Shown: positions 48,231 through 58,874, counted from the stretch's first letter. The stretch: DNA of 64,000 bases from Slackia sp. (GCA_020725885.1 DYEA01000017.1:1-64000), one strand, 5' to 3'. The notes: a model not told the origin generated them from the letters alone. Numbers and translations: made by a program.

Positions 48231-49592
48231 CTACGCCGTCGAGCCGGTGAACCGCCAGGCTGCAAGCGCGAGCGCGGGCACGAGCGTCGAGCCGCCGCCC
48301 TCTGTGCCGATAAGCTCGCGGTCGCGGCCGATCGCGACGAGCCCCTTGAGCGCCTCGACGACGCTTTGCGTGAAGCGCGCGTTGGCGAGCGGCTTCGTGA
48401 GGCGGCCGTCCTCGATGAGGAAGGCGCCGTCGCGCGTCATGCCGGTGAGCAGGACGCTTACCGGGTCCTCGACGTTGACGTAGTGAAAGCGCGTGACGTA
48501 CACGCCGCGCTCGATGCCGGCGATCATCTCGTCGATCGTCGCGTCGCCGGGCTCGATGGCGAGGTCGAGCGGGAGTGGGCCGTAGGGGTTCGGCGCGGGA
48601 AGCGCGTGCCCGGTGTTTTCCCGCCCGAGCTTGGCCGCCCAATACGAGTCAGTGACGACGGCCGCTGGGCGGCCGCGGTCGACAAGCGCGACGCGGCGCC
48701 TCGGGACGCCCTCGTAGTCGAAGGGCAGGCCGATGGCGGCCGGGTGGAGGGCGTCGTCGACGATCGTGAGGGACTCGGGGAAGAGCTGCTCGCCTTCGTG
48801 GAGGGCGACGAAGGAGCGCCGCTCGTGGTAGTCGCGTGCGCCGAAGGACGTGTAGCCGAGGAAGTCGACGAGGTCCGCGACGGCGTCCGGCGCGAGCACG
48901 ACGGGGTAGACGCCCGGCTCGAGGGGCTGCGCGCCTGCAGAGCGCTGGGCGAGCAGCGCTGCGCGGTCGCCGAGGGAGTCGGCGGGGAGGGCCGTGGGGT
49001 CGGCGCCGAGCCACGACGCCCAGCCGCTTCCGCCCGAATCGTCCATCGAGAGCACCGTTGCGCGAGCCGCGCCTCGGGTGGCTGCGGACCGGATGCCGCG
49101 CGAGTTCACGACCGCGACGCCGGCGACCGAGGCAGAGACCGTTCCAGCGGCGGTAAGCCCGCGTTCAGCCGACTGCGCGATGATGGCTGCAGCGGCGTCG
49201 GCGCGCGCGTCGGCGTCGAAGGCGTCGAGGTCGAAGGAGGGGCGAGCGGGGGCGGACGGAGCGGCAGCGACAGGGGCGGGCAGCCCCGGGAACGACGGGT
49301 CTTCGGGCGCGCGCAGCGCGGCCTCGCGAGCGCGGGCGCAGCAGCGCGCGAGCGCGTCGTCGCCAGTGAGGTCGGTCGCGGCCACGCCTTGCCGCGTGCC
49401 GATGACGACGCGAACAGAGACGCTCGACGCGCGCTCGGCGACGTTCTGGTGGATGCGGTTGTTCGCGAAGCGGGTGAGCGCGGAACGCTCGACCGCGGCC
49501 AGCACCTCGACCTCATCGCCGTCGGCGAGCGCAAACGCGCGCTGCGCGAGCTCGAGCGCGGCTTCGTGCGGCATCGGTGTGCCCGTGCTCAT
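48231..49592 (-). CDS. tldE: TldE/PmbA metalloprotease partner subunit
   Basis: 453 residues from ATG 49592 (GGGGGTGG upstream). TldE-like: lacks the HExxxH zinc motif but has the shared fold (NSRGIRSAATRGAARATV, LGYTSFGARDYHERRSFVAL, and FDYEGVPRRRVALVDRG). TldD and TldE form a heterodimeric metalloprotease that degrades unfolded peptides and matures microcins and CcdA-like antitoxins. Overlaps tldD by four bases (ATGA). Confidence 0.93.
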   Translation of the reverse strand: MSTGTPMPHEAALELAQRAFALADGDEVEVLAAVERSALTRFANNRIHQNVAERASSVSVRVVIGTRQGVAATDLTGDDALARCCARAREAALRAPEDPSFPGLPAPVAAAPSAPARPSFDLDAFDADARADAAAAIIAQSAERGLTAAGTVSASVAGVAVVNSRGIRSAATRGAARATVLSMDDSGGSGWASWLGADPTALPADSLGDRAALLAQRSAGAQPLEPGVYPVVLAPDAVADLVDFLGYTSFGARDYHERRSFVALHEGEQLFPESLTIVDDALHPAAIGLPFDYEGVPRRRVALVDRGRPAAVVTDSYWAAKLGRENTGHALPAPNPYGPLPLDLAIEPGDATIDEMIAGIERGVYVTRFHYVNVEDPVSVLLTGMTRDGAFLIEDGRLTKPLANARFTQSVVEALKGLVAIGRDRELIGTEGGGSTLVPALALAAWRFTGSTA

Positions 49593-51031
49593 CGCGCCAC
49601 CCCCACCTGGACGTTGCGGAAGCGTGCGGGCGCCGCGCCGTGCGCGACGTGCGCCACCTGCATCGGCTCGCCTTTGCCGCAGTTCGGGACGCCCCAGACC
49701 TGCCAGTGCGCTGCCGAGCAGACCGCGTCGCACGACGCCCAGAACTGCGGGGTGATGCCGGTGTAGTTGGGGTTCTTGATCATGCGGCCGAGCTTGCCGC
49801 CTTTGATCTCCCAGCCGATCTCGCATGCGAACTGGAAGTTCAGGCGCTTGTCGTCGATCGACCAGGAGCTGTTCGTCTCCATGAGGATGCCGTCGTCGGT
49901 GTCGGCGATGAGCGCATCGAGGTCCCACGCGCCCGGCTCGAGCGAGACGGTCGTCATGCGCACGAGCGGGATGCGGTTCCAGCCGCTCGCGCGGGCGCAC
50001 CCGGTGCTCGCGCGCCCGATGGCGGCCGCTGACTCGCGCGAGGAGAGAAAGCCTGCGAGCACGCCCTCGCGCACGACGTCGAAGCGCTGCGCGGGCACGC
50101 CCTCGTCGTCGTAACCGAAGCTGCCGAGCGAGCCCGGCGTCGTGGCGTCAGCCACGACGTTCACGTGCTCGGAGCCGTAGCGGAGCGTGCCGAGGTCGGC
50201 GGCGCGCACCCACGACGTGCCCGCGAACGCCGCCTCGTCGCCCAGCACGCGGTCGAGCTCGGTGGGATGGCCGATCGACTCGTGCACCTGCAGCGCCATC
50301 TGGCTGCCGTCGAGGATGACGGTGGTGGTGTCGCTCGGGCAGGGGATCGCGTGCGCGAGCGCGGCGGCCTGCTCGGCGACGCGCGGCGCATTGCCGACGA
50401 GGTCCATCGCGAGCACGGCCTCCCAGCCGGCCTGCACGTGCTGACCGCCGTGGGAGTTCGGGTACGAGCGCGTGAGCACCTCGCCGTCCGTCACCACGCG
50501 CGCGACGATGCCCGCCCCGACCTCGGTGTGCGACTGCTCGATCAGTGCTCCCGCCGTCGAGGCGAAGACCTTGCGGACCGAAAGCGCGTCGAGCGACGCT
50601 TCGGTCACGCGCACGGACGGTTCCGCGCGCAGCGCTTCTTCCGCGGCGATCAGCAGCGCGAGCTTGTCGTCGAGCGCAACCGAGAACGGGTCGACCTCGC
50701 ACCGCCCATGCCACTCGTCGCGCACGGCGGGCGAGTCCGCGAGCCGTACGGGCGCCTGCCACGTCCGGGCCGCCGCCCGGGCGAGCCAGACGGCCTCGCG
50801 CGCAGCGGCCGCCACAGCGCCCGCGCCGAGGTCGGATGTCGCCGCGAAGCCCCACGCGCCGTCGGCGATCACGCGGATGCCGAGCCCGAGCGTCTCGCTC
50901 GACGCGATGCCGTCCACGCGTCCGGTGCGCACGGAGATGCGCTCGGAGCGCTCGCTCACGACTCGGGCCTCGGCATAGGCCGCGCCTGCGACCTCAGCGG
51001 CGTCGAGCGCCGCAGCGACGATGTCGCGCAT
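49589..51031 (-). CDS. tldD: TldD metalloprotease catalytic subunit
   Basis: 480 residues, ATG. The zinc-binding motif HESIGH lies in LQVHESIGHPTELDRVLGDE. Other family elements: SLGSFGYDDEGVPAQRFDVV, RESAAAIGRASTGCARASGW (substituted middle), and a C-terminal ILMETNSSWSIDDKRLNFQF with a Cys-containing end (NCGKGEPM). Forms a heterodimer with TldE made from the next gene. Confidence 0.94.
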   Translation of the reverse strand: MRDIVAAALDAAEVAGAAYAEARVVSERSERISVRTGRVDGIASSETLGLGIRVIADGAWGFAATSDLGAGAVAAAAREAVWLARAAARTWQAPVRLADSPAVRDEWHGRCEVDPFSVALDDKLALLIAAEEALRAEPSVRVTEASLDALSVRKVFASTAGALIEQSHTEVGAGIVARVVTDGEVLTRSYPNSHGGQHVQAGWEAVLAMDLVGNAPRVAEQAAALAHAIPCPSDTTTVILDGSQMALQVHESIGHPTELDRVLGDEAAFAGTSWVRAADLGTLRYGSEHVNVVADATTPGSLGSFGYDDEGVPAQRFDVVREGVLAGFLSSRESAAAIGRASTGCARASGWNRIPLVRMTTVSLEPGAWDLDALIADTDDGILMETNSSWSIDDKRLNFQFACEIGWEIKGGKLGRMIKNPNYTGITPQFWASCDAVCSAAHWQVWGVPNCGKGEPMQVAHVAHGAAPARFRNVQVGVAR

Positions 51032-51043
51032 GGTCCCCCCTCG

Positions 51044-52180
51044 TCAGTCTACGGTGGTGCGTGCTCCCTCGGGCGGCGCAGAGCGCGGCGACCACTCGTA
51101 CCGCCGCGCACCGGCGTAGTCCCGCCGGTCGGCGAGCCGCGCGAGCCGCACCACGTCCCCCGTGCGCGGTGCGTGCACGAACCAGCCGCCGCCGACGTAG
51201 ATCCCGACGTGGTACACCGGATTGCCGAAGAATACCGCATCGCCAGGCTGCAAGTCAGCCGGCGCGACCCGCTCGCCGAGCGCGAACTGCGCCCGCGAGT
51301 AGTGCGGCAGTTGCACGCCGTGCTGGCGGAACACATACATGACGAGCCCCGAGCAGTCGAAGCCGGCCGTCGGGCTCTCGCCGCCCCAGACGTACGGCAC
51401 GCCGAGGTACGCGAGCGCCGTCTCGACCGGCGAGCCGGGCGTCACGGTGACGGTGCCGTCGGGCGAGCCGGCGAGCAGGCGCCGCAGGAACTCGGCCTCC
51501 TCTTGCTGCCGCGCCGCTGCCTGCTCTGCGAGCAGCCCCAGCACCTCTGCCTGCGCGTTCGCGAGCAGCTCCTGGCGCTCTTGGATCCGGAGCTCGATCT
51601 CGATCTTGCGGGCGGCGAGCTCGAACTCGAGCTCTTCGGCGCGCCGAGCGGCCGCTTCGGCTTCCTCGGCGGTGCGCCGAGCGAGGTCGCGCTGCGCCTC
51701 GAGGGAGGCGGCAGTGCGGGCATCCGCCTCGCCGATCGCACCTAGGAACCGCAGGCGCGCCAGCAGGTCCGCAAGCGACTTCGCCTGGAGCAGCGTGGCG
51801 AGCGGGTGCTCCGCCCCGTCGCGGTAGATGGCAGCGGCCCGCTCCTCGAGCAGCCGCTGCTGCTCTTGGAGGGCGACTTCAGCTGCCGCGAGGTCGACCA
51901 CGGCAGCGTCCGCGCGGGCGCGCGCAAGCGCGAGCTGGTCGCGCGCCGCGTTCCACTCCTCGGCGGCGATGCCAAGTTCGCGGTCGAGCGCTTCGAGCTC
52001 GGCTGTGAGCGAGTCCACGCGCGACTGGAGGTCGGCGAGGCGAGCGGTGTCAGGCGCTGCTGCCGTCGGCGCAGGAGAACGGTCCGGCGGAAGTGCCGCA
52101 GCAGGGAAGGTGCCGCCGAGCGCGACTGCTACGGCGAGTGCGGCTGCCACGAACATGCGGTATGAACGCCGATGAATCAT
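51044..52180 (-). CDS. Exported coiled-coil NlpC/P60 peptidoglycan endopeptidase
   Basis: 378 residues from ATG 52180 (weak site). Signal peptide, ~220 residues of coiled coil with the same PcsB-type hinge as two other hydrolases here (ERAAAIYRDG... LLQAKSLADLLARLRFL), then an NlpC/P60 catalytic domain: catalytic Cys in FDCSGLVMYVF and His in HVGIYVGGGWFVHAP, plus AYLGVPYVWGG. It should cut the stem peptide of peptidoglycan. Probably activated when its coiled coil binds an FtsX-like protein. Confidence 0.93.
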   Translation of the reverse strand: MIHRRSYRMFVAAALAVAVALGGTFPAAALPPDRSPAPTAAAPDTARLADLQSRVDSLTAELEALDRELGIAAEEWNAARDQLALARARADAAVVDLAAAEVALQEQQRLLEERAAAIYRDGAEHPLATLLQAKSLADLLARLRFLGAIGEADARTAASLEAQRDLARRTAEEAEAAARRAEELEFELAARKIEIELRIQERQELLANAQAEVLGLLAEQAAARQQEEAEFLRRLLAGSPDGTVTVTPGSPVETALAYLGVPYVWGGESPTAGFDCSGLVMYVFRQHGVQLPHYSRAQFALGERVAPADLQPGDAVFFGNPVYHVGIYVGGGWFVHAPRTGDVVRLARLADRRDYAGARRYEWSPRSAPPEGARTTVD

Positions 52181-52223
52181 GCCGAACCGTACTCTAGCAC
52201 GGCTCATGCCAGCGATGAACACG

Positions 52224-52274: not shown

Positions 52275-55200
52275 TCACGGCCAGTACGGGCTGATCGCGG
52301 TGTTGTGCCCGCCGCAGTTCGTCGTGCAGTTGTCCTTGGGCCAGTTGGCTCGGCCGCTGTTGAGCGTGATGTTCGAGAGGCCGATGCGAGTCAAGCCGGA
52401 CGTGGCTCCAGCATAGATACCGTCGGCATTCACGTACACGAGCAGCCGCGGCCGCTTCCAGCCGTGCGGGACCTTGATGTGGCACCGGATGCAGCCGCCG
52501 TCGGTGATGTTGCCCTGGTGGTCTCCAGTGCTATGCACGTTATTCGACCAGGTGCCACTGGGGCCGTTGAGGTCGTGACATTTCGCACAGATGATGGTGG
52601 TTGAGCTCATGCCGTTTGCGGTGTTCTGCAGGAACGCTGTCTTCCAGTCCGTCGGATACGCCGGATCGAGCAGCCACTGCACGCTCGATCCGTGCGGGCC
52701 CTTTGCGCTCGCGGTGGAGTTTGTGTGGCACTCCGTGCAGGTCATCATCGAGTTCGTCGTCCACGAGCTTCCTGATACGAAGAAGCTGACTGTGGGGACT
52801 TCCCACGTGACCGTCCGCTGCGTTCCGCCCGAGTCAACGAACGTGAACGAGGACTTCATGCCGACGCTCTGGCCGAGGACGTTGTGGTACGAGAAGTTGC
52901 TCGGGTTGAACTCGAGCGCCTGGTCGGTCGACGTGTAGGTCGCGTTGTTGCTTCTGGTCGCCGTGAACGGCTGGCCGCTGTAGGAGCTGTGGCACTTGAA
53001 GCAGAGGTACGCCTCGTAGTCAGTGCTCTGGCCGTCGAGGCGCTCGGTCGTCCAGTTGCCGGCGGGCACCGCCGTCCAGTTTGCAGGCCACGCGGTGGGC
53101 TTCACGCCGGTCGCGCCGCGGATCGCCTCGCCCGCAAGCGAGCTGCCCGTGGTGTGGCGGCCGCGCCGGAGCGCGTGCGGGTCGTGGCAGTCCACGCACT
53201 CCGCGTGGCGGTTCGATGCGCCGAGCTGCGAGGCGGTCTCGGTGTCGCTGTGGCGGCCAGAGCGCTCCACCGGGTGGCGGTACGTCAGGCCGAACGCGGT
53301 TTGGACGTTGATGGCATCGATCGCGGTCGTGTGGCACGCACCGCCCGTGCAGTTCGGTGTGCGCGAGCTCGTGTGGCACGCGTAGCACAGCGCCTCTTCC
53401 GCGTATGCGGATGTGTTGTTGCGCCGCTGGCTGATGTGGGCGCCAGGCGGGCTTGCACCGACGTAGTACGCCGTGAGTGCCGTCAGGCGTGCATTCTGCG
53501 AGGCGTGTGGATCGTGGCACGAGCTGCACTCGGGCGTCATCCGCGGGACGAGCGAGTTCTTATGGCCGCTGCTCGCCCAGTCCAGGCCGGTCGCCGACTT
53601 GTTCCAGCCAGGGAAGAACGGCGCCGTCTGGTCGGAGAACGCTACAGTGTACGGGACGATCGTCGTGGCATTCGTGGCCGATGCCGGCGGCGTTCCGTCG
53701 TGGCAGCGCAGGCAGAAGTCGGTCGGAGATGTCGGGGCCGCCAGCTTCGTGTTGTCGGGGTCGCTTGCGCGGGTCATGTCCCACACCTCGGTGCCGCCTT
53801 TGCTGACGGAGTGCACGTTGTGGCAGTTCGCGCAGGTGAGCGAGCCGGAGGTCACGACCAGCCGGTCGTACAGCCCCGTGAGCGTCCAGTCGTAGAGCCA
53901 CGGGGTGTCAAGGCCGTTGCTCGAAGAGAGGTTGGCGCGCAGCCGCAGCTTCGGGTACGCGGCCGTGCTGTACGCGGTCAGGTCTACCGGCCCGGAGTTC
54001 GCGCCGCTCACGAGCGTCTGCCACGACGAGCCGTTGTAGCCCTCGACGGTCACGGTCAGCCCGGTGTTCGCCGGCTCGCTTTCGGTCCAGGTCAGCACGC
54101 CCCAGTGGTGCACCGAACCGGCCGGCGTGATGTCCGGCGTCGTCGCAGTGCCGGAAGAGTAGTACAAGACAACCGAGTACGAGGGCGGATCGGCTGTCGC
54201 GAACGCGATGCCGGCACCCTCGTTCTGCGTCCACGGCGTGCCGGTGAGCGTCTCCCAGTTGCCCCAGTTGGCCGCGGTGCCGGCGTTGGATGCCGGGATG
54301 CGGATGCGCGCCATCGCGGTGCTCGTGCCGCCCTGGATGGCGTACAGGTAACCGCCGTTCACGCCGTCCCACTTCAAGTCGCAACCGTCCGCGAGCGCGG
54401 CTCCGAACGGGAACTTGTTGAGGTCCGTCTTCGCAGGCGTGCCGCCCAGGTTCGTCACGATGACGGTGTCGTCTGCACCGCCGGTGTCCTTGCCGATCAT
54501 CATCAGGTACTCGACGCCGCCGCCGTCGCGGAAGTACGCGAGGCGGTTGTAGTCGGTGTTGCTGGTGTTGCGAGTGACCTGGAGGTTGCTGTTCGTGAAG
54601 TTCTGGTTGCCGGTGAGCACGCCGGGGTTGGCGAGGTAGTACAGGTTGCCAACGCCGGTTCCGGTGGCGGTGCCGTTACGCCGCAGCACGAACAGCCGGT
54701 TGGCGGTGGGCGCGTACGCGATGGCCGATCCGGCCCCGAGGTTGGTGGCCGTGCCGCCTGGCGCGAACACCATGTTGTTCTCACTGTTGTTGTCGTAACG
54801 GAACCAGTTGATGTTGCTGGAGCCGCCGCCTGCCGAGATGTACACCACGCTCGAGCCGGTGTTGACCGCGGACTGCGCCCCCTGCCCGAACGCCGAGTTG
54901 AAGGTGATAGCGATGGACGCCCAGGTGCCATTGCCGGAGTTCGCCAGCGGCGTGTAGGCGGTGATCTGCGGGCTCGTTTGTGTGTTGCGCGTCACATAGA
55001 CTTTTCCGCCAGCCGAGAACAGCACGGAGCCAGACCCCGTGTTGAACGACCCGTTGACCGGCGGGTCGAAGCGCCCGTAGTTGTCGGCGTTCCACGCGTC
55101 GTCAGCCGGCCGGTACTGCTCGAAGTCCTGGGCGCCGCCATCGTGCGCGAAGAGGTAGGTCTCCGCTGGCGGGTCGATGACCGCTGTATACCGCGACAGC

Positions 55201-56528
55201 ACGATCTCACCGCCTGCGGTGTTCGTGGTAGTGGCGTTGACGAGCGTATAGGTGTTGAAGTCGCTCTGCAGGGTGTGCGCAAGCACCGTCGAGGTCTCGG
55301 TGACGTACGACCCGCTCGTCACTTGGTACGGATGGCGCGAGTTGTACGTCGTGAACTGCGCCTGCACGTCGCGGCCGTTCCACGCGTACGGCTTGGTGCC
55401 GACGAGGCGCGTGTCGGTCGTCGAGTTCGAGTGGCACGCGAAGCACACCGCAGCGCCGCCTGCTTGCGATGCCGTCGTGCCCTGCGACCGGTAGTCGACG
55501 AGCTTGTCGGCGCGGCTCGCGTGCTTGTTGTGGCAGGCGGTGCACTGGATGCCGGGGTTCGGGTCGGTGGTGTTCGAAAGCACCGTCGACGGGCCGTGCG
55601 CGGCCGTCGCGTACCCGGCCGAGTTGTGGTCGCCGCCGGAATCGGCGTAGGCGTTCGCGCCGCCGACGATCGCGATCGGGCCGGAGTTGGCGCCGTGGCA
55701 GCCGAAGCAGAAGGCGTTGCCCTGCGGGCTGTCGTTGCGGCTGTAGTAGGTGTAGGTGTTCGCCGGATACTCGATGCGCAGCATCCGCCGGTAGCTCAGC
55801 GACGCCTGGTACACGCCGGCCGCGTCGTAGAAGAACGGCGAGCGGTGCGGCGTGTGGCACGCGGTGCACTCCTGCCGGGTGGAGGTCATGTTCGCGTTGC
55901 GGTGCTTCGATCCGGCAGTCACGGTGCCGGTGTCGAAGAACGACGCCTCGACGTTGTAGGTGCTCTTCGCGCCGGTGGCGAACGATGCGCCGGTCGAGCC
56001 GTGGCAGTAGTAGCACGACTCCTTCGTCTGGTACGGGAAGCGGTACGCGCCGTGGACCTGGTGGCACCGCGGGCACGAGACCTGGCTCGGGTCGGTGCGG
56101 TTGCTATGCACGTTCGGCGACATGTTGTACGAGACGCCCGACTTGTTGCCGAGCGAGTCGCGCGCAACGACGGCGTAGTACCAGACGTAGGACTGCGTGG
56201 TCTCAGCGGAGGCGGCGTTGACGATGGCGCTGGTGCCGGTGACGCCGGTCGCGACCGGGGTGAGGCCGCGGGAGACGATGGTGGCGGCGGTAACGGGGAT
56301 GACGTCGCGGTAGACGTCGTAGACGATCGCGTGGCCGGACGCGTCTGTCGATGCGCTCCACTGGACCGTGACGGTCGGCGACGTCAACAGGCTCGCGCGC
56401 GGCGTGACGAAGACGTCGCGCATGGTCGGCGTCGTCGGCGTCGCGGCGTACGCAACGCCGGCTCCGAGCGCGCACGCGACCGCGGCCGCGAGCACCGCCG
56501 CTCGCAGCAGGGTCTGCCATCTGCTCAT
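52275..56528 (-). CDS. Giant 16-haem c-type cytochrome with a haem-free central region
   Basis: 1417 residues from ATG 56528 (GGAGGTGG upstream; a GTG at 56537 lies within that site). Signal peptide (LLRAAVLAAAVACALGAGVAYA), a fibronectin-like domain (~45-130), six CxxCH motifs at ~152-362, a ~500-residue haem-free part (400-890) of repeated beta-blade-like segments (SVLFSAGGKVYVTRNT, SVVYISAGGGSSNINWFRYD) ending in a beta-sandwich, then nine CxxCH and one CX4CH (NCTGGACH) to residue ~1390. No transmembrane helix or wall anchor. It is expected to be matured outside the membrane and carry electrons at the surface. One operon with the upstream small exported protein. Confidence 0.93.
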   Translation of the reverse strand: MSRWQTLLRAAVLAAAVACALGAGVAYAATPTTPTMRDVFVTPRASLLTSPTVTVQWSASTDASGHAIVYDVYRDVIPVTAATIVSRGLTPVATGVTGTSAIVNAASAETTQSYVWYYAVVARDSLGNKSGVSYNMSPNVHSNRTDPSQVSCPRCHQVHGAYRFPYQTKESCYYCHGSTGASFATGAKSTYNVEASFFDTGTVTAGSKHRNANMTSTRQECTACHTPHRSPFFYDAAGVYQASLSYRRMLRIEYPANTYTYYSRNDSPQGNAFCFGCHGANSGPIAIVGGANAYADSGGDHNSAGYATAAHGPSTVLSNTTDPNPGIQCTACHNKHASRADKLVDYRSQGTTASQAGGAAVCFACHSNSTTDTRLVGTKPYAWNGRDVQAQFTTYNSRHPYQVTSGSYVTETSTVLAHTLQSDFNTYTLVNATTTNTAGGEIVLSRYTAVIDPPAETYLFAHDGGAQDFEQYRPADDAWNADNYGRFDPPVNGSFNTGSGSVLFSAGGKVYVTRNTQTSPQITAYTPLANSGNGTWASIAITFNSAFGQGAQSAVNTGSSVVYISAGGGSSNINWFRYDNNSENNMVFAPGGTATNLGAGSAIAYAPTANRLFVLRRNGTATGTGVGNLYYLANPGVLTGNQNFTNSNLQVTRNTSNTDYNRLAYFRDGGGVEYLMMIGKDTGGADDTVIVTNLGGTPAKTDLNKFPFGAALADGCDLKWDGVNGGYLYAIQGGTSTAMARIRIPASNAGTAANWGNWETLTGTPWTQNEGAGIAFATADPPSYSVVLYYSSGTATTPDITPAGSVHHWGVLTWTESEPANTGLTVTVEGYNGSSWQTLVSGANSGPVDLTAYSTAAYPKLRLRANLSSSNGLDTPWLYDWTLTGLYDRLVVTSGSLTCANCHNVHSVSKGGTEVWDMTRASDPDNTKLAAPTSPTDFCLRCHDGTPPASATNATTIVPYTVAFSDQTAPFFPGWNKSATGLDWASSGHKNSLVPRMTPECSSCHDPHASQNARLTALTAYYVGASPPGAHISQRRNNTSAYAEEALCYACHTSSRTPNCTGGACHTTAIDAINVQTAFGLTYRHPVERSGRHSDTETASQLGASNRHAECVDCHDPHALRRGRHTTGSSLAGEAIRGATGVKPTAWPANWTAVPAGNWTTERLDGQSTDYEAYLCFKCHSSYSGQPFTATRSNNATYTSTDQALEFNPSNFSYHNVLGQSVGMKSSFTFVDSGGTQRTVTWEVPTVSFFVSGSSWTTNSMMTCTECHTNSTASAKGPHGSSVQWLLDPAYPTDWKTAFLQNTANGMSSTTIICAKCHDLNGPSGTWSNNVHSTGDHQGNITDGGCIRCHIKVPHGWKRPRLLVYVNADGIYAGATSGLTRIGLSNITLNSGRANWPKDNCTTNCGGHNTAISPYWP

Positions 56529-56562: not shown

Positions 56563-57249
56563 TTACCAAAGCCTCGTGACCTGGCTCACTACGAGACTGC
56601 CCGAATCGTTGAGCGGATCGAGCGTCGTGAGGCGCCATCCGTCCTTTGTGTACCGCAGCGGGATGGCGATCGTGTGCTCCGAATCGATGCCGCCGTCGTG
56701 CCACACGACCTGAGCGAACGCGAGGTAGACGGTGGTTGTGCTGGCCGTGCGGATCTGCACCGAGGGCAGCGGCGCGCCGCTCACGAGCTTCGGCTGTGCC
56801 GCGAGGCGGCGCTGGGCGACGGCTTCCGGGGAGAGGCCTTCGTCGGCTGCGGCGATCGCAGCGAGCGCACCGGTGTCGCCGGCCGTCAGCGCCTTCAGTG
56901 CGCGCTCGAGGGTCTGCTTGAGCGAAGCCGCGTTGTCGCGCACCGTCGCCTCGGCCTTCGAGACGTACTCGTCGTACGCGGCGCGGTCTTCGGGGGAGAG
57001 GTCCTCGAGGGAGGACGTCGCGAGCTTCTGGAGAGCGCGCTCGGGAAGGGCCAGCGGGTCGCGGATGCCGGCGGTGTCGGGTGCCGTGCGGGCCTCCGGC
57101 GGAGGAACGATGCCGCCGTCCGCTGGGCCGGCGCCCGGCTCGAGCTGCACGCCGGGCGCGCCGGCCGATCCGGGGCGCAAGAACGCCACGCCGAGGGCGG
57201 CAACCGCCACCACGGCCAGCACGGCGATCGTTGTCTGCGCGCGGGTCAG
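56563..57249 (-). CDS. Exported or anchored protein of unknown function upstream of the cytochrome
   Basis: 228 residues if translation begins at the CTG at 57249. N-terminal membrane helix (TTIAVLAVVAVAALGVAFL), a Pro/Gly-rich linker, a helical region (~60-140; SPEDRAAYDEYVSKAEATVR) and a C-terminal beta region with VYLAFAQVVWHDGGIDSEHT. No Cys and no haem motif. The CTG start is proposed because AAGGAGG lies five bases before it, while upstream ATGs (57285, 57324) lie at or before the predicted transcript start (~57284). The cytochrome gene follows after 34 bases, so this is likely a partner, perhaps for anchoring. Confidence 0.68.
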   Translation of the reverse strand: MTRAQTTIAVLAVVAVAALGVAFLRPGSAGAPGVQLEPGAGPADGGIVPPPEARTAPDTAGIRDPLALPERALQKLATSSLEDLSPEDRAAYDEYVSKAEATVRDNAASLKQTLERALKALTAGDTGALAAIAAADEGLSPEAVAQRRLAAQPKLVSGAPLPSVQIRTASTTTVYLAFAQVVWHDGGIDSEHTIAIPLRYTKDGWRLTTLDPLNDSGSLVVSQVTRLW

Positions 57250-57290
57250 CTCGGCCTCCTTCGTGCGATGGGCAGACCAGTACATCACGG

Positions 57291-57317
57291 TTATCGGTAC
57301 AGGGCTTTGTGATTTGA
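57291..57317 (-). promoter_or_regulatory. Sigma28/WhiG-like promoter of the cytochrome operon
   Basis: On the minus strand, -10 ACCGATAA (57291-57298), 15-base spacer, -35 TCAA (57314-57317). Predicted start ~57284 gives a ~35-base leader to the CTG with AAGGAGG at the right distance. Confidence 0.55.
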
Positions 57318-57359
57318 GGCACACGCAGCGGGTTTCCGCCAGAAGCAGGGATGCGTGCG

Positions 57360-57429: not shown

Positions 57430-58809
57430 AGAAGCATCTAATACAGGGGGGTCAGGCGGCGTCGGCGAACCGTGACTCCCAGTGAGCGTCCCACTCGTTG
57501 TTGAAGCGTAGCAGCTTGAGCTTGAGGATCCCGAGGGCCCCTGGCTTGAGCCAACTCATGCCGCGGCACTTCAAGCGTCTGGAGACCAAGACGTCCACCG
57601 CTTTTTCCAGAGATCCCGAACCGAACAGATCGGTGCGCGTGTAGTTCCGAATGCCCTCCGCGTTGACAGTGATGTAGTTGATGAGCCGCCGGTGGACCTG
57701 GCGGACCCTGTCGTCGGGGCCCGGATCGTATGAGCGCAGGATGCGGACCGCCGCATGCGGCCTGCCTGCCACGCACTCGCTCAGCACGCGCTCGCGCCAC
57801 GCAGCGTCCTTTTCGCGGGAGAACAGCTCCGAGATGCGGCGCTTGAGGTGGTAGAGGTCGAGCACGTAGACGGCATCGGGGAACCAGTCGCGCGCGGTCC
57901 GTCTGATCCAGCCCGCGCCGTCCCCGATCACGATCGTCGTGCCTGCGGTGGTCATCCCCGCCTTCACGGCAAGCGTCGACATCTTGCGTGCGAAGGTCGC
58001 CGTGTCCTCGATCCCGGCGTGGGCGGTGCGGCCGAGCAGCGTCCGGCGCCCTTCCGAGACGTCGGCCACCCCGCTCCACACCACGCCGACCCGTGCCTCG
58101 AAGCGCTCGCCCGTCGCCCGGTCGGCGACAAGCCCTCCATCCATGGCCACGACGACCGTGTCTTGGCCATCGCGCTCCACACACCCTGGCGGGCAGACCC
58201 CGCAGGAGAACAGCTCGTCTGTCTCGCGCTCGAGTTCCACGCCGATGCGCGTGGCCTCGGAAAGGGCGAATCTGCGTATCTGCTCGTGGCTGACCGTGGC
58301 GCCTGTGAGGCGGGCAAGCAGGTCCGAGGACTTCGCGTACCCGAGCTCTGTGGCCAGGCGCAGCGCACGTTCGGTGACAGGCAGCGTGTGCCGTGCTTCG
58401 GGCAGGAACGCCGCAAGCGGGGCCGAGCGCGCCTTGCACTCCTTGCACCGCAAGCGTCTGACAGGCACGCTCACGGCGCCTGCGAGCATCACGACACTCC
58501 TGTGATCGACATCTGAGACGGTCAGGACACCGCCGCACGAGGGGCACGTCCGTTCCTTGAGCAGGCCGGCCTCGATCTGACTGCACGCTTCGGAGAACGC
58601 CGCACGCTGCACCTCCTTGATCCTTTCTTCGAGATCACGGTCGAGCACGTGGACGGAAGCGTCATCGGGAAGCTCGATCTCCACGACACCGAGCTCGATG
58701 CGGACTATCATCGACATGCGGACTCCTCTCATCAGGTTGGTTGTGGTGACCCCACTGATGAAGGAGTCCGCACTCTTCGTCAACCAGCCCCCGAGTTTGT
58801 GATGCTTCC
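57430..58809 (-). mobile_element. Insertion sequence, 1380 bp, ISKra4/ISLre2-like
   Basis: One transposase gene bounded by imperfect terminal inverted repeats: both ends read xGAAGCATC...A.AC..GGGGG over ~27 bases (left from 57430, right from 58809 inward). A perfect 9-bp duplication CTTCGTCCG flanks it. The single ORF, DDE-type transposase and 9-bp duplication fit the ISKra4 or ISLre2 families. It has landed between the cytochrome-operon regulatory repeats and the initiator tRNA promoter, 18 bases from the outermost repeat and 17 bases from the tRNA -35 box. Confidence 0.88.
57452..58717 (-). CDS. DDE transposase of the insertion sequence (ISKra4/ISLre2-like)
   Basis: 421 residues from ATG 58717 (GAGAGGAG upstream). 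N-terminal zinc-ribbon pairs CPSC and CKEC lead to a DDE domain with candidate acidic residues in VVVAMDGGL, VIGDGAGWI and GSLEKAVDVLVSRRLKCRG, plus DLYHLKRRISELF. Frame is intact, so the element may be active. GSGSLEKAV near the C-terminus with RGMSW is typical of the ISKra4/ISLre2 group; the exact family needs a database comparison. Confidence 0.87.
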   Translation of the reverse strand: MSMIVRIELGVVEIELPDDASVHVLDRDLEERIKEVQRAAFSEACSQIEAGLLKERTCPSCGGVLTVSDVDHRSVVMLAGAVSVPVRRLRCKECKARSAPLAAFLPEARHTLPVTERALRLATELGYAKSSDLLARLTGATVSHEQIRRFALSEATRIGVELERETDELFSCGVCPPGCVERDGQDTVVVAMDGGLVADRATGERFEARVGVVWSGVADVSEGRRTLLGRTAHAGIEDTATFARKMSTLAVKAGMTTAGTTIVIGDGAGWIRRTARDWFPDAVYVLDLYHLKRRISELFSREKDAAWRERVLSECVAGRPHAAVRILRSYDPGPDDRVRQVHRRLINYITVNAEGIRNYTRTDLFGSGSLEKAVDVLVSRRLKCRGMSWLKPGALGILKLKLLRFNNEWDAHWESRFADAA

Positions 58810-58818
58810 CTTCGTCCG
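58810..58818. repeat. Target-site duplication, right copy
   Basis: CTTCGTCCG, identical to 57421-57429. It lies next to the tRNA promoter. Confidence 0.85.
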
Positions 58819-58826
58819 GGTCCGGC

Positions 58827-58855
58827 TTGCGCTGGCCGCGCTGGGCTGCTAGAAT
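58827..58855 (+). promoter_or_regulatory. Promoter of the initiator tRNA gene
   Basis: TTGCGC (58827-58832), 17-base spacer, TAGAAT (58850-58855), twenty bases before the tRNA. The -10 lies in an inverted repeat CTGCT/AGCAG. Confidence 0.7.
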
Positions 58856-58874
58856 CAGCAGCCGCTTCACAGAG

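Follow-up and report, generated by a model that had tools for sequence, protein, structure and literature searches.

In a 64,000-nucleotide stretch of DNA from Slackia sp. (GCA_020725885.1 DYEA01000017.1:1-64000; hereafter the window), we identified a gene for a large multihaem cytochrome that carries a Kelch-type propeller and a beta-sandwich between two consecutive haem motifs. The open reading frame lies on the minus strand and comprises 1417 codons, with an ATG start preceded, at a distance of about 9 nt, by a good ribosome-binding site (GGAGGT). The host has a genome of 1.83 Mb. Among named organisms, its closest relative is Coriobacteriaceae bacterium EMTCatB1, whose orthologue (BDLO01000001.1, near 1.2014-1.2055 Mb) is 66-69% identical, and judging from its relatives the lineage presumably belongs to OPB41/Anaerosomatales; Parvivirga and Anaerosoma are cultured representatives of OPB41 (PMC9686372). 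The gene and its parts are as follows:

52275-56528, minus strand: cytochrome gene, 1417 amino acids; orthologues in eight relatives are 49-69% identical over nearly the full length
56445-56528, minus strand: signal peptide, residues 1-28 (AYA before and ATP after the junction), seen in the sequence; orthologues retain the AxA site
56091-56444, minus strand: N-terminal FN3-like beta domain, residues 29-146 (family profile against the PDB)
55326-56090, minus strand: haem block 1, motifs 1-6, residues 147-401, ending just past the invariant H399
54186-55166, minus strand: six-bladed Kelch-type propeller, approximately residues 455-781 (structure alignment and family profile)
54147-55196, minus strand: stretch of foreign ancestry, approximately residues 445-794 (identity contrast and approximately unbiased (AU) test)
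53859-54158, minus strand: beta-sandwich after the propeller, approximately residues 791-890, a conserved block in 13 homologues that is repeated in relatives
52449-53852, minus strand: haem block 2, nine CxxCH motifs and an optional CX4CH motif, residues 893-1360
53331-53351, minus strand: CX4CH motif (residues 1060-1066, CTGGACH), not present in every family member
52278-52448, minus strand: conserved C-terminal tail (PHGWKRPRLL ... C...C..H ... WP), residues 1361-1417, also present in a 33-haem paralogue

Six CxxCH motifs, starting at residues 152, 172, 221, 274, 329 and 362, form the first group and nine, starting at residues 899, 939, 1001, 1048, 1111, 1176, 1264, 1314 and 1346, the second. 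With the CX4CH motif at residue 1060, the protein has 16 haem motifs (6 + 10), the two groups being separated by about 490 haem-free residues. After shuffling, the protein contains 0.03 CxxCH motifs on average (maximum 1), compared to the 15 observed, and a chance origin of the series is thus excluded.

The original prediction held that the middle part splits the haems into two clusters and could bring two wires together. The orthologues do not support this. We searched 60 related genomes and obtained a main alignment of 13 long and seven short proteins, from which misaligned short N-terminal fragments were excluded. The long form contains the middle part, whereas in the short form the counterparts of residues 10-404 and 893-1417 are joined almost directly: only 0-4 residues of that part separate the invariant S-x-HP, which includes H399, from GSLTCANCH, and the insertion point is 9-13 residues before motif 7, in the loop between H399 and haem 7. 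Consequently different intervals separate motifs 6 and 7, 537 residues in the window protein compared to 50-52 in the short forms, within motif series that otherwise match. The successive CxxCH spacings are 20, 49, 53, 55, 33, 537, 40, 62, 47, 63, 65, 88, 50 and 32 in the window protein; 20, 52, 58, 55, 37, 51, 39, 58, 45, 62, 68, 85, 58 and 34 in a no-insert orthologue; and 24, 42, 38, 44, 23, 40, 35, 59, 31, 58, 46, 57, 36 and 32 in other lineages of the phylum. The 15-haem relatives in these other lineages, including Candidatus Geothermocultor, show a matching series with a 6-to-7 interval of 39-40 residues. The normal interval is likewise kept, along with the 15-motif series, in the seven no-insert orthologues, in G035 from another family and in G042 and G056, which carry an insert elsewhere. 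The sequences thus show a continuous motif series into which the middle part has been inserted at one exact site, the H399-haem 7 loop; H399 itself is a likely candidate haem ligand. An assembly or frame artefact was considered as the source of the split and ruled out, the frame being single and open in at least eight independent genomes.

None of the seven no-insert orthologues in the main alignment has the CX4CH motif, and several long ones lack it too; because it is optional, the conserved core comprises 15 haems, arranged 6 + 9. The window protein matches Pfam Paired_CXXCH_1 (E 1e-26) and the MtrC/MtrF domain II/IV family PF22113 (60.6 bits over the full protein against a cut-off of 30, with residues 1171-1351 matching best), and PF22113 is also matched by all seven no-insert cores (best E 2.4e-22). 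The cores contain 18 invariant histidines outside the motifs, which is therefore enough for bis-His ligation of the 15 core haems, with no ligand obviously missing. A PDB sequence search with the whole protein yielded nothing convincing, and no solved cytochrome was matched by the core profile at E 0.01. An AlphaFold2 model of residues 152-1351, covering all 16 motifs, was built from a 5-row alignment (mean predicted local distance difference test score (pLDDT) 32, predicted template modelling score 0.29) and was not used for haem distances.

At its N-terminus, the protein carries a leader of the signal-peptidase-I type, with no lipobox cysteine in the orthologues, and the cytochrome has no C-terminal membrane segment. 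The family profile of the domain that follows matches the chitinase A1 FN3 domain (1k85, E 1.3e-8) and titin (E 2e-11) in the PDB, and the Pfam fn3 match is weak. In some relatives (L010:58-1527, L057:5272-7101), about 480 additional residues, comprising a Big_5 domain and propeller-like repeats, precede the FN3-like domain. At the opposite end, the tail with PHGWKRPRLL, a mostly conserved cysteine pair and a final WP is common to the orthologues and the paralogue and may be a sorting or assembly signal. An extra haem-like site near residue 1401 was rejected for want of a haem motif; the cysteine pair there is conserved in most sequences and may form a disulfide. The original prediction of a secreted multihaem cytochrome with 15 CxxCH motifs and one CX4CH motif in two groups, an N-terminal fibronectin domain and no membrane anchor is thus well supported, with the correction that the CX4CH motif is not part of the conserved core.

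The insert consists of two parts. Its first part, predicted in the original reading as beta-blade-like repeats, proved to be a propeller, with the sandwich following as had been described. In a model of residues 401-896, derived from a thin alignment (pLDDT 54), the propeller aligns with the Kelch domain of KLHL12 (VIA-align; Z 20.8, root-mean-square deviation (rmsd) 3.6, 267 residues aligned), and the insert family profile matches a 'Kelch protein' in the PDB (9tsn, E 2.8e-6). Pfam Kelch_6 matches weakly in four of the 13 members, and the window's own copy of the insert has no single-sequence Pfam match. The assignment to six-bladed Kelch-type propellers is well supported, the details of the fold less so. 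Foldseek used alone on the middle part placed GH43 enzymes, sialidases and lectins on top, at template modelling scores of about 0.2-0.35 and rmsd mostly near 20, and these matches were not used. No clear relative of the beta-sandwich was found. The module contains no conserved Cys, His or Met, and thus nothing points to a redox centre within it. A search with the middle region alone, as the original prediction had proposed, was run as a family profile against 298 genomes of the class; it matched only genomes of the same order, and all matches for which frames were read lie inside CxxCH proteins.

Layouts of 31 homologues, read with profiles for each part, revealed considerable variation at the 6/7 site. 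No insert is present there in seven orthologues of the same family, in G035 and in G042 and G056. One Kelch propeller plus sandwich is found in the window protein and 12 others, namely those of the main alignment, and two modules in a row in G005 (at the locus of the window gene), G048 and G049, the last with a third sandwich. Other folds occupy the site in G007 (a 285-residue jelly-roll-like part) and in G033 and G006 (a 680-residue set of jelly-roll and DUF1349-like parts). In G042 and G056, the extra domain instead lies between motifs 10 and 11 and is an FG-GAP propeller of about 360 residues.

Among these relatives, G049 (L045:1321-9357) is a protein of 2679 residues with 42 CxxCH motifs, and G056 (L046) has an open frame of 4960 residues; in both, the haem-Kelch-haem unit stands at the end. 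The window's own genome additionally encodes, on contig 17, a paralogue of 1392 residues with 33 CxxCH motifs (L058:4977-9152), just preceded by a 14-haem protein. The paralogue shares with the window protein the tail and a block 55% identical to the C-terminal 218 residues, followed by CarboxypepD_reg and F5/8 type C (discoidin-type) domains, and it repeats the theme of haems with an attached surface domain.

The same genes flank the different versions of the cytochrome. On the minus strand of the window, these are:

56563-57324, minus strand: conserved upstream gene, separated from the cytochrome by 35 bp and encoding a membrane-anchored protein of unknown family, with syntenic homologues beside the orthologues
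51044-52222, minus strand: downstream NlpC/P60 peptidoglycan hydrolase with a PcsB-like coiled coil (Pfam E 4.5e-26)
49589-51031, minus strand: PmbA/TldD-type peptidase, next in the conserved run
48231-50000, minus strand: second TldD-type peptidase, its true start lying inside this range

The upstream membrane protein, which has no Pfam match, and the NlpC/P60, PmbA and TldD genes flank the no-insert, single-Kelch, double-Kelch and jelly-roll versions alike, and the forms in the window's family are therefore true orthologues. The NlpC/P60 gene adjoins most orthologues of family f1 regardless of the insert, and the hydrolase may help the large cytochrome pass the wall. Just upstream of the conserved run lies a UPF0236-like transposase (window 57452-58870).

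To follow the history of the gene, we built a tree restricted to the haem core, with the phylum's other lineages as the root. The no-insert state occupies the outgroup and the deepest ingroup branch, and the tree requires at least three changes between presence and absence, and five among the states none, Kelch and other. One gain followed by at least two losses would be the simplest reading, and repeated gain of the insert would also be compatible with the tree. The haems belong to a single chain of 15, ancestral to the family. The propeller, by contrast, has moved separately and has an ancestry unlike that of the rest of the gene: residues ~445-794 share 45-47% identity with the two same-genus orthologues versus 63% with an orthologue from a different genus. 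Identity to the same-genus orthologues is ~60-90% in the flanking sandwich and in most of the haem-block sequence. In the propeller tree, monophyly of the genus is rejected (AU p 2e-40).

A mosaic patch is also present at residues 1020-1069 (window 53322-53471), around haem 10 and the CX4CH motif. Its first half is 71% identical to G038, from another family, and 25% identical to same-genus orthologues. The patch is near the site where G042 and G056 hold their FG-GAP propeller.

We consider the protein to be, with reasonable probability, a secreted electron relay built on one continuous 15-haem chain (16 haems here), with the insert serving as a docking module at its side. The ancestral chain would relay electrons outside the membrane, and the Kelch and sandwich module would project sideways from it and offer a docking surface to a partner protein, a polysaccharide, a mineral or a neighbouring cell, so that electrons would run through the haems while the module binds. 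We infer the relay function, the close contact between haems 6 and 7, the docking role and the extracellular site; docking or recognition is inferred because whole modules have been exchanged while the chain was kept. The middle part thus probably serves for docking rather than interrupting the wire, which leaves the ligand-binding role suggested in the original prediction standing as a possibility. More tentatively, and at slightly less than an even chance, the family could be viewed as a constant 15-haem chassis with a cassette site at haems 6/7, where domains are gained, lost, doubled, swapped for unrelated folds or replaced by foreign alleles, such that partners would be chosen by domain exchange with the wire unchanged. 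Several points weigh against the docking interpretation. The model of the haem blocks is too poor for haem distances (pLDDT 32), and recombination has also affected haem block 2 (residues 1020-1069), so that mosaicism is not limited to the module. Furthermore, the insert could change how the two haem blocks are positioned against one another, a role that has been proposed in MtrC.

Among the alternatives, the one that survives best, although we regard it as unlikely, is that the module keeps the secreted cytochrome in the wall by attaching to peptidoglycan or to a secondary wall polymer. The lack of a membrane anchor, the conserved NlpC/P60 hydrolase next door and the weak similarity of one relative's inserts to carbohydrate-binding domains (CBM_4_9, F5/8C, below cut-off) are all consistent with such anchoring. 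However, the no-insert orthologues, which have the same neighbours, would need another anchor, and the propeller differs even within the genus, although close relatives should have similar wall chemistry.

OcwA of Thermincola potens is likewise a surface-type multihaem cytochrome of a monoderm; it differs in its haem number (9) and in its fold, which is NrfA/HAO-like with a three-helix bundle plus a small beta-sheet domain (PMC6703420). The window protein has no NrfA-type Pfam match. OmhA, SmhB and SmhC of Carboxydothermus ferrireducens are, similarly, secreted Gram-positive multihaem cytochromes without porin or pilin partners (PMC7829351), but have fewer haems (11, 12 and 6-7, respectively), and kelch or fibronectin domains are not mentioned in PMC7829351. 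CwcA of Thermincola and OmcS-type filaments, for which electron carriage across the wall has likewise been proposed (PMC7911101), are hexahaem polymers, whereas the core profile of the window protein matched no solved cytochrome (E 0.01). In OmcS, OmcE and OmcZ filaments, a haem ligand is contributed by the adjacent subunit; the 18 invariant non-motif histidines of the core supply enough ligands without one. KLHL12, Keap1 and bacterial Kelch proteins share the fold of the insert, but the window's propeller sits inside a cytochrome and has no conserved redox residues. No paper linking 'kelch' with multihaem cytochromes came up among the results listed in our literature search.

The closest parallel is MtrC, in which beta and haem domains alternate and the beta-barrels are placed so that two pentahaem domains touch (PMC12304082). 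By analogy, the middle beta part could act as a hinge between the haem blocks that controls their contact and so makes or breaks the chain, as suggested for MtrC domains II and IV, a scenario that we rate somewhat below wall anchoring. The order beta, haem, beta, haem is indeed that of MtrC, OmcA and MtrF of Shewanella (PMC12304082), and the haem blocks match PF22113 above the Pfam cut-off. The haems of the Shewanella proteins are arranged as a staggered cross. A precise hinge, however, would hardly allow natural orthologues without any middle part, nor double-size and unrelated inserts at the one place. The Shewanella proteins also have ten haems, five per haem domain, compared to 15 conserved in the window's family (6 + 9) plus the optional CX4CH, and split beta-barrels I and III in place of an FN3-like domain and a dispensable Kelch and sandwich module. 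Moreover, they are outer-membrane lipoproteins with MtrAB partners, whereas the window cytochrome has neither a lipobox nor MtrAB neighbours. We therefore describe the cytochrome as working like MtrC without classing it as one. The original claim that no described cytochrome has this exact arrangement holds insofar as the arrangement is unusual, but it is not unique in kind, given that beta and haem domains also alternate in MtrC and OmcA (PMC12304082).

Improbable, in our view, is an exposed tip that lacks a fixed ligand and whose sequence turnover is driven by phages or grazers exploiting it. The presence, copy number, type and allele of the module are all variable, as such diversification would predict, but many propeller positions are invariant across families, and no phage evidence turned up, although none was sought. 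Finally, the Kelch fold might suggest a galactose-oxidase-like enzyme domain feeding electrons into the haem chain, which is very improbable because no Cys, His or Met of the module is conserved and it thus lacks a copper or Cys-Tyr site of the galactose-oxidase type.

To conclude, the supposed two clusters are one haem chain with an exchangeable Kelch cassette, which makes a testable case of a puzzling split cytochrome. On a methane-producing biocathode, EMTCatB1, the nearest named relative of the host, is the dominant bacterium (PMC7943316), and multihaem cytochromes of this sister species are expressed on the thermophilic biocathode (PMC7943316), although the named genes could not be mapped to the orthologue of the window gene. 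Because natural variants of a single haem chain (long, short, double and swapped) occupy the same locus, the contribution of the side domain to extracellular electron transfer is measurable by comparison of orthologues. Furthermore, a haem chain that accepts domains of 285 to 1100 residues between neighbouring haem motifs offers a natural attachment place for binding domains on a protein wire.

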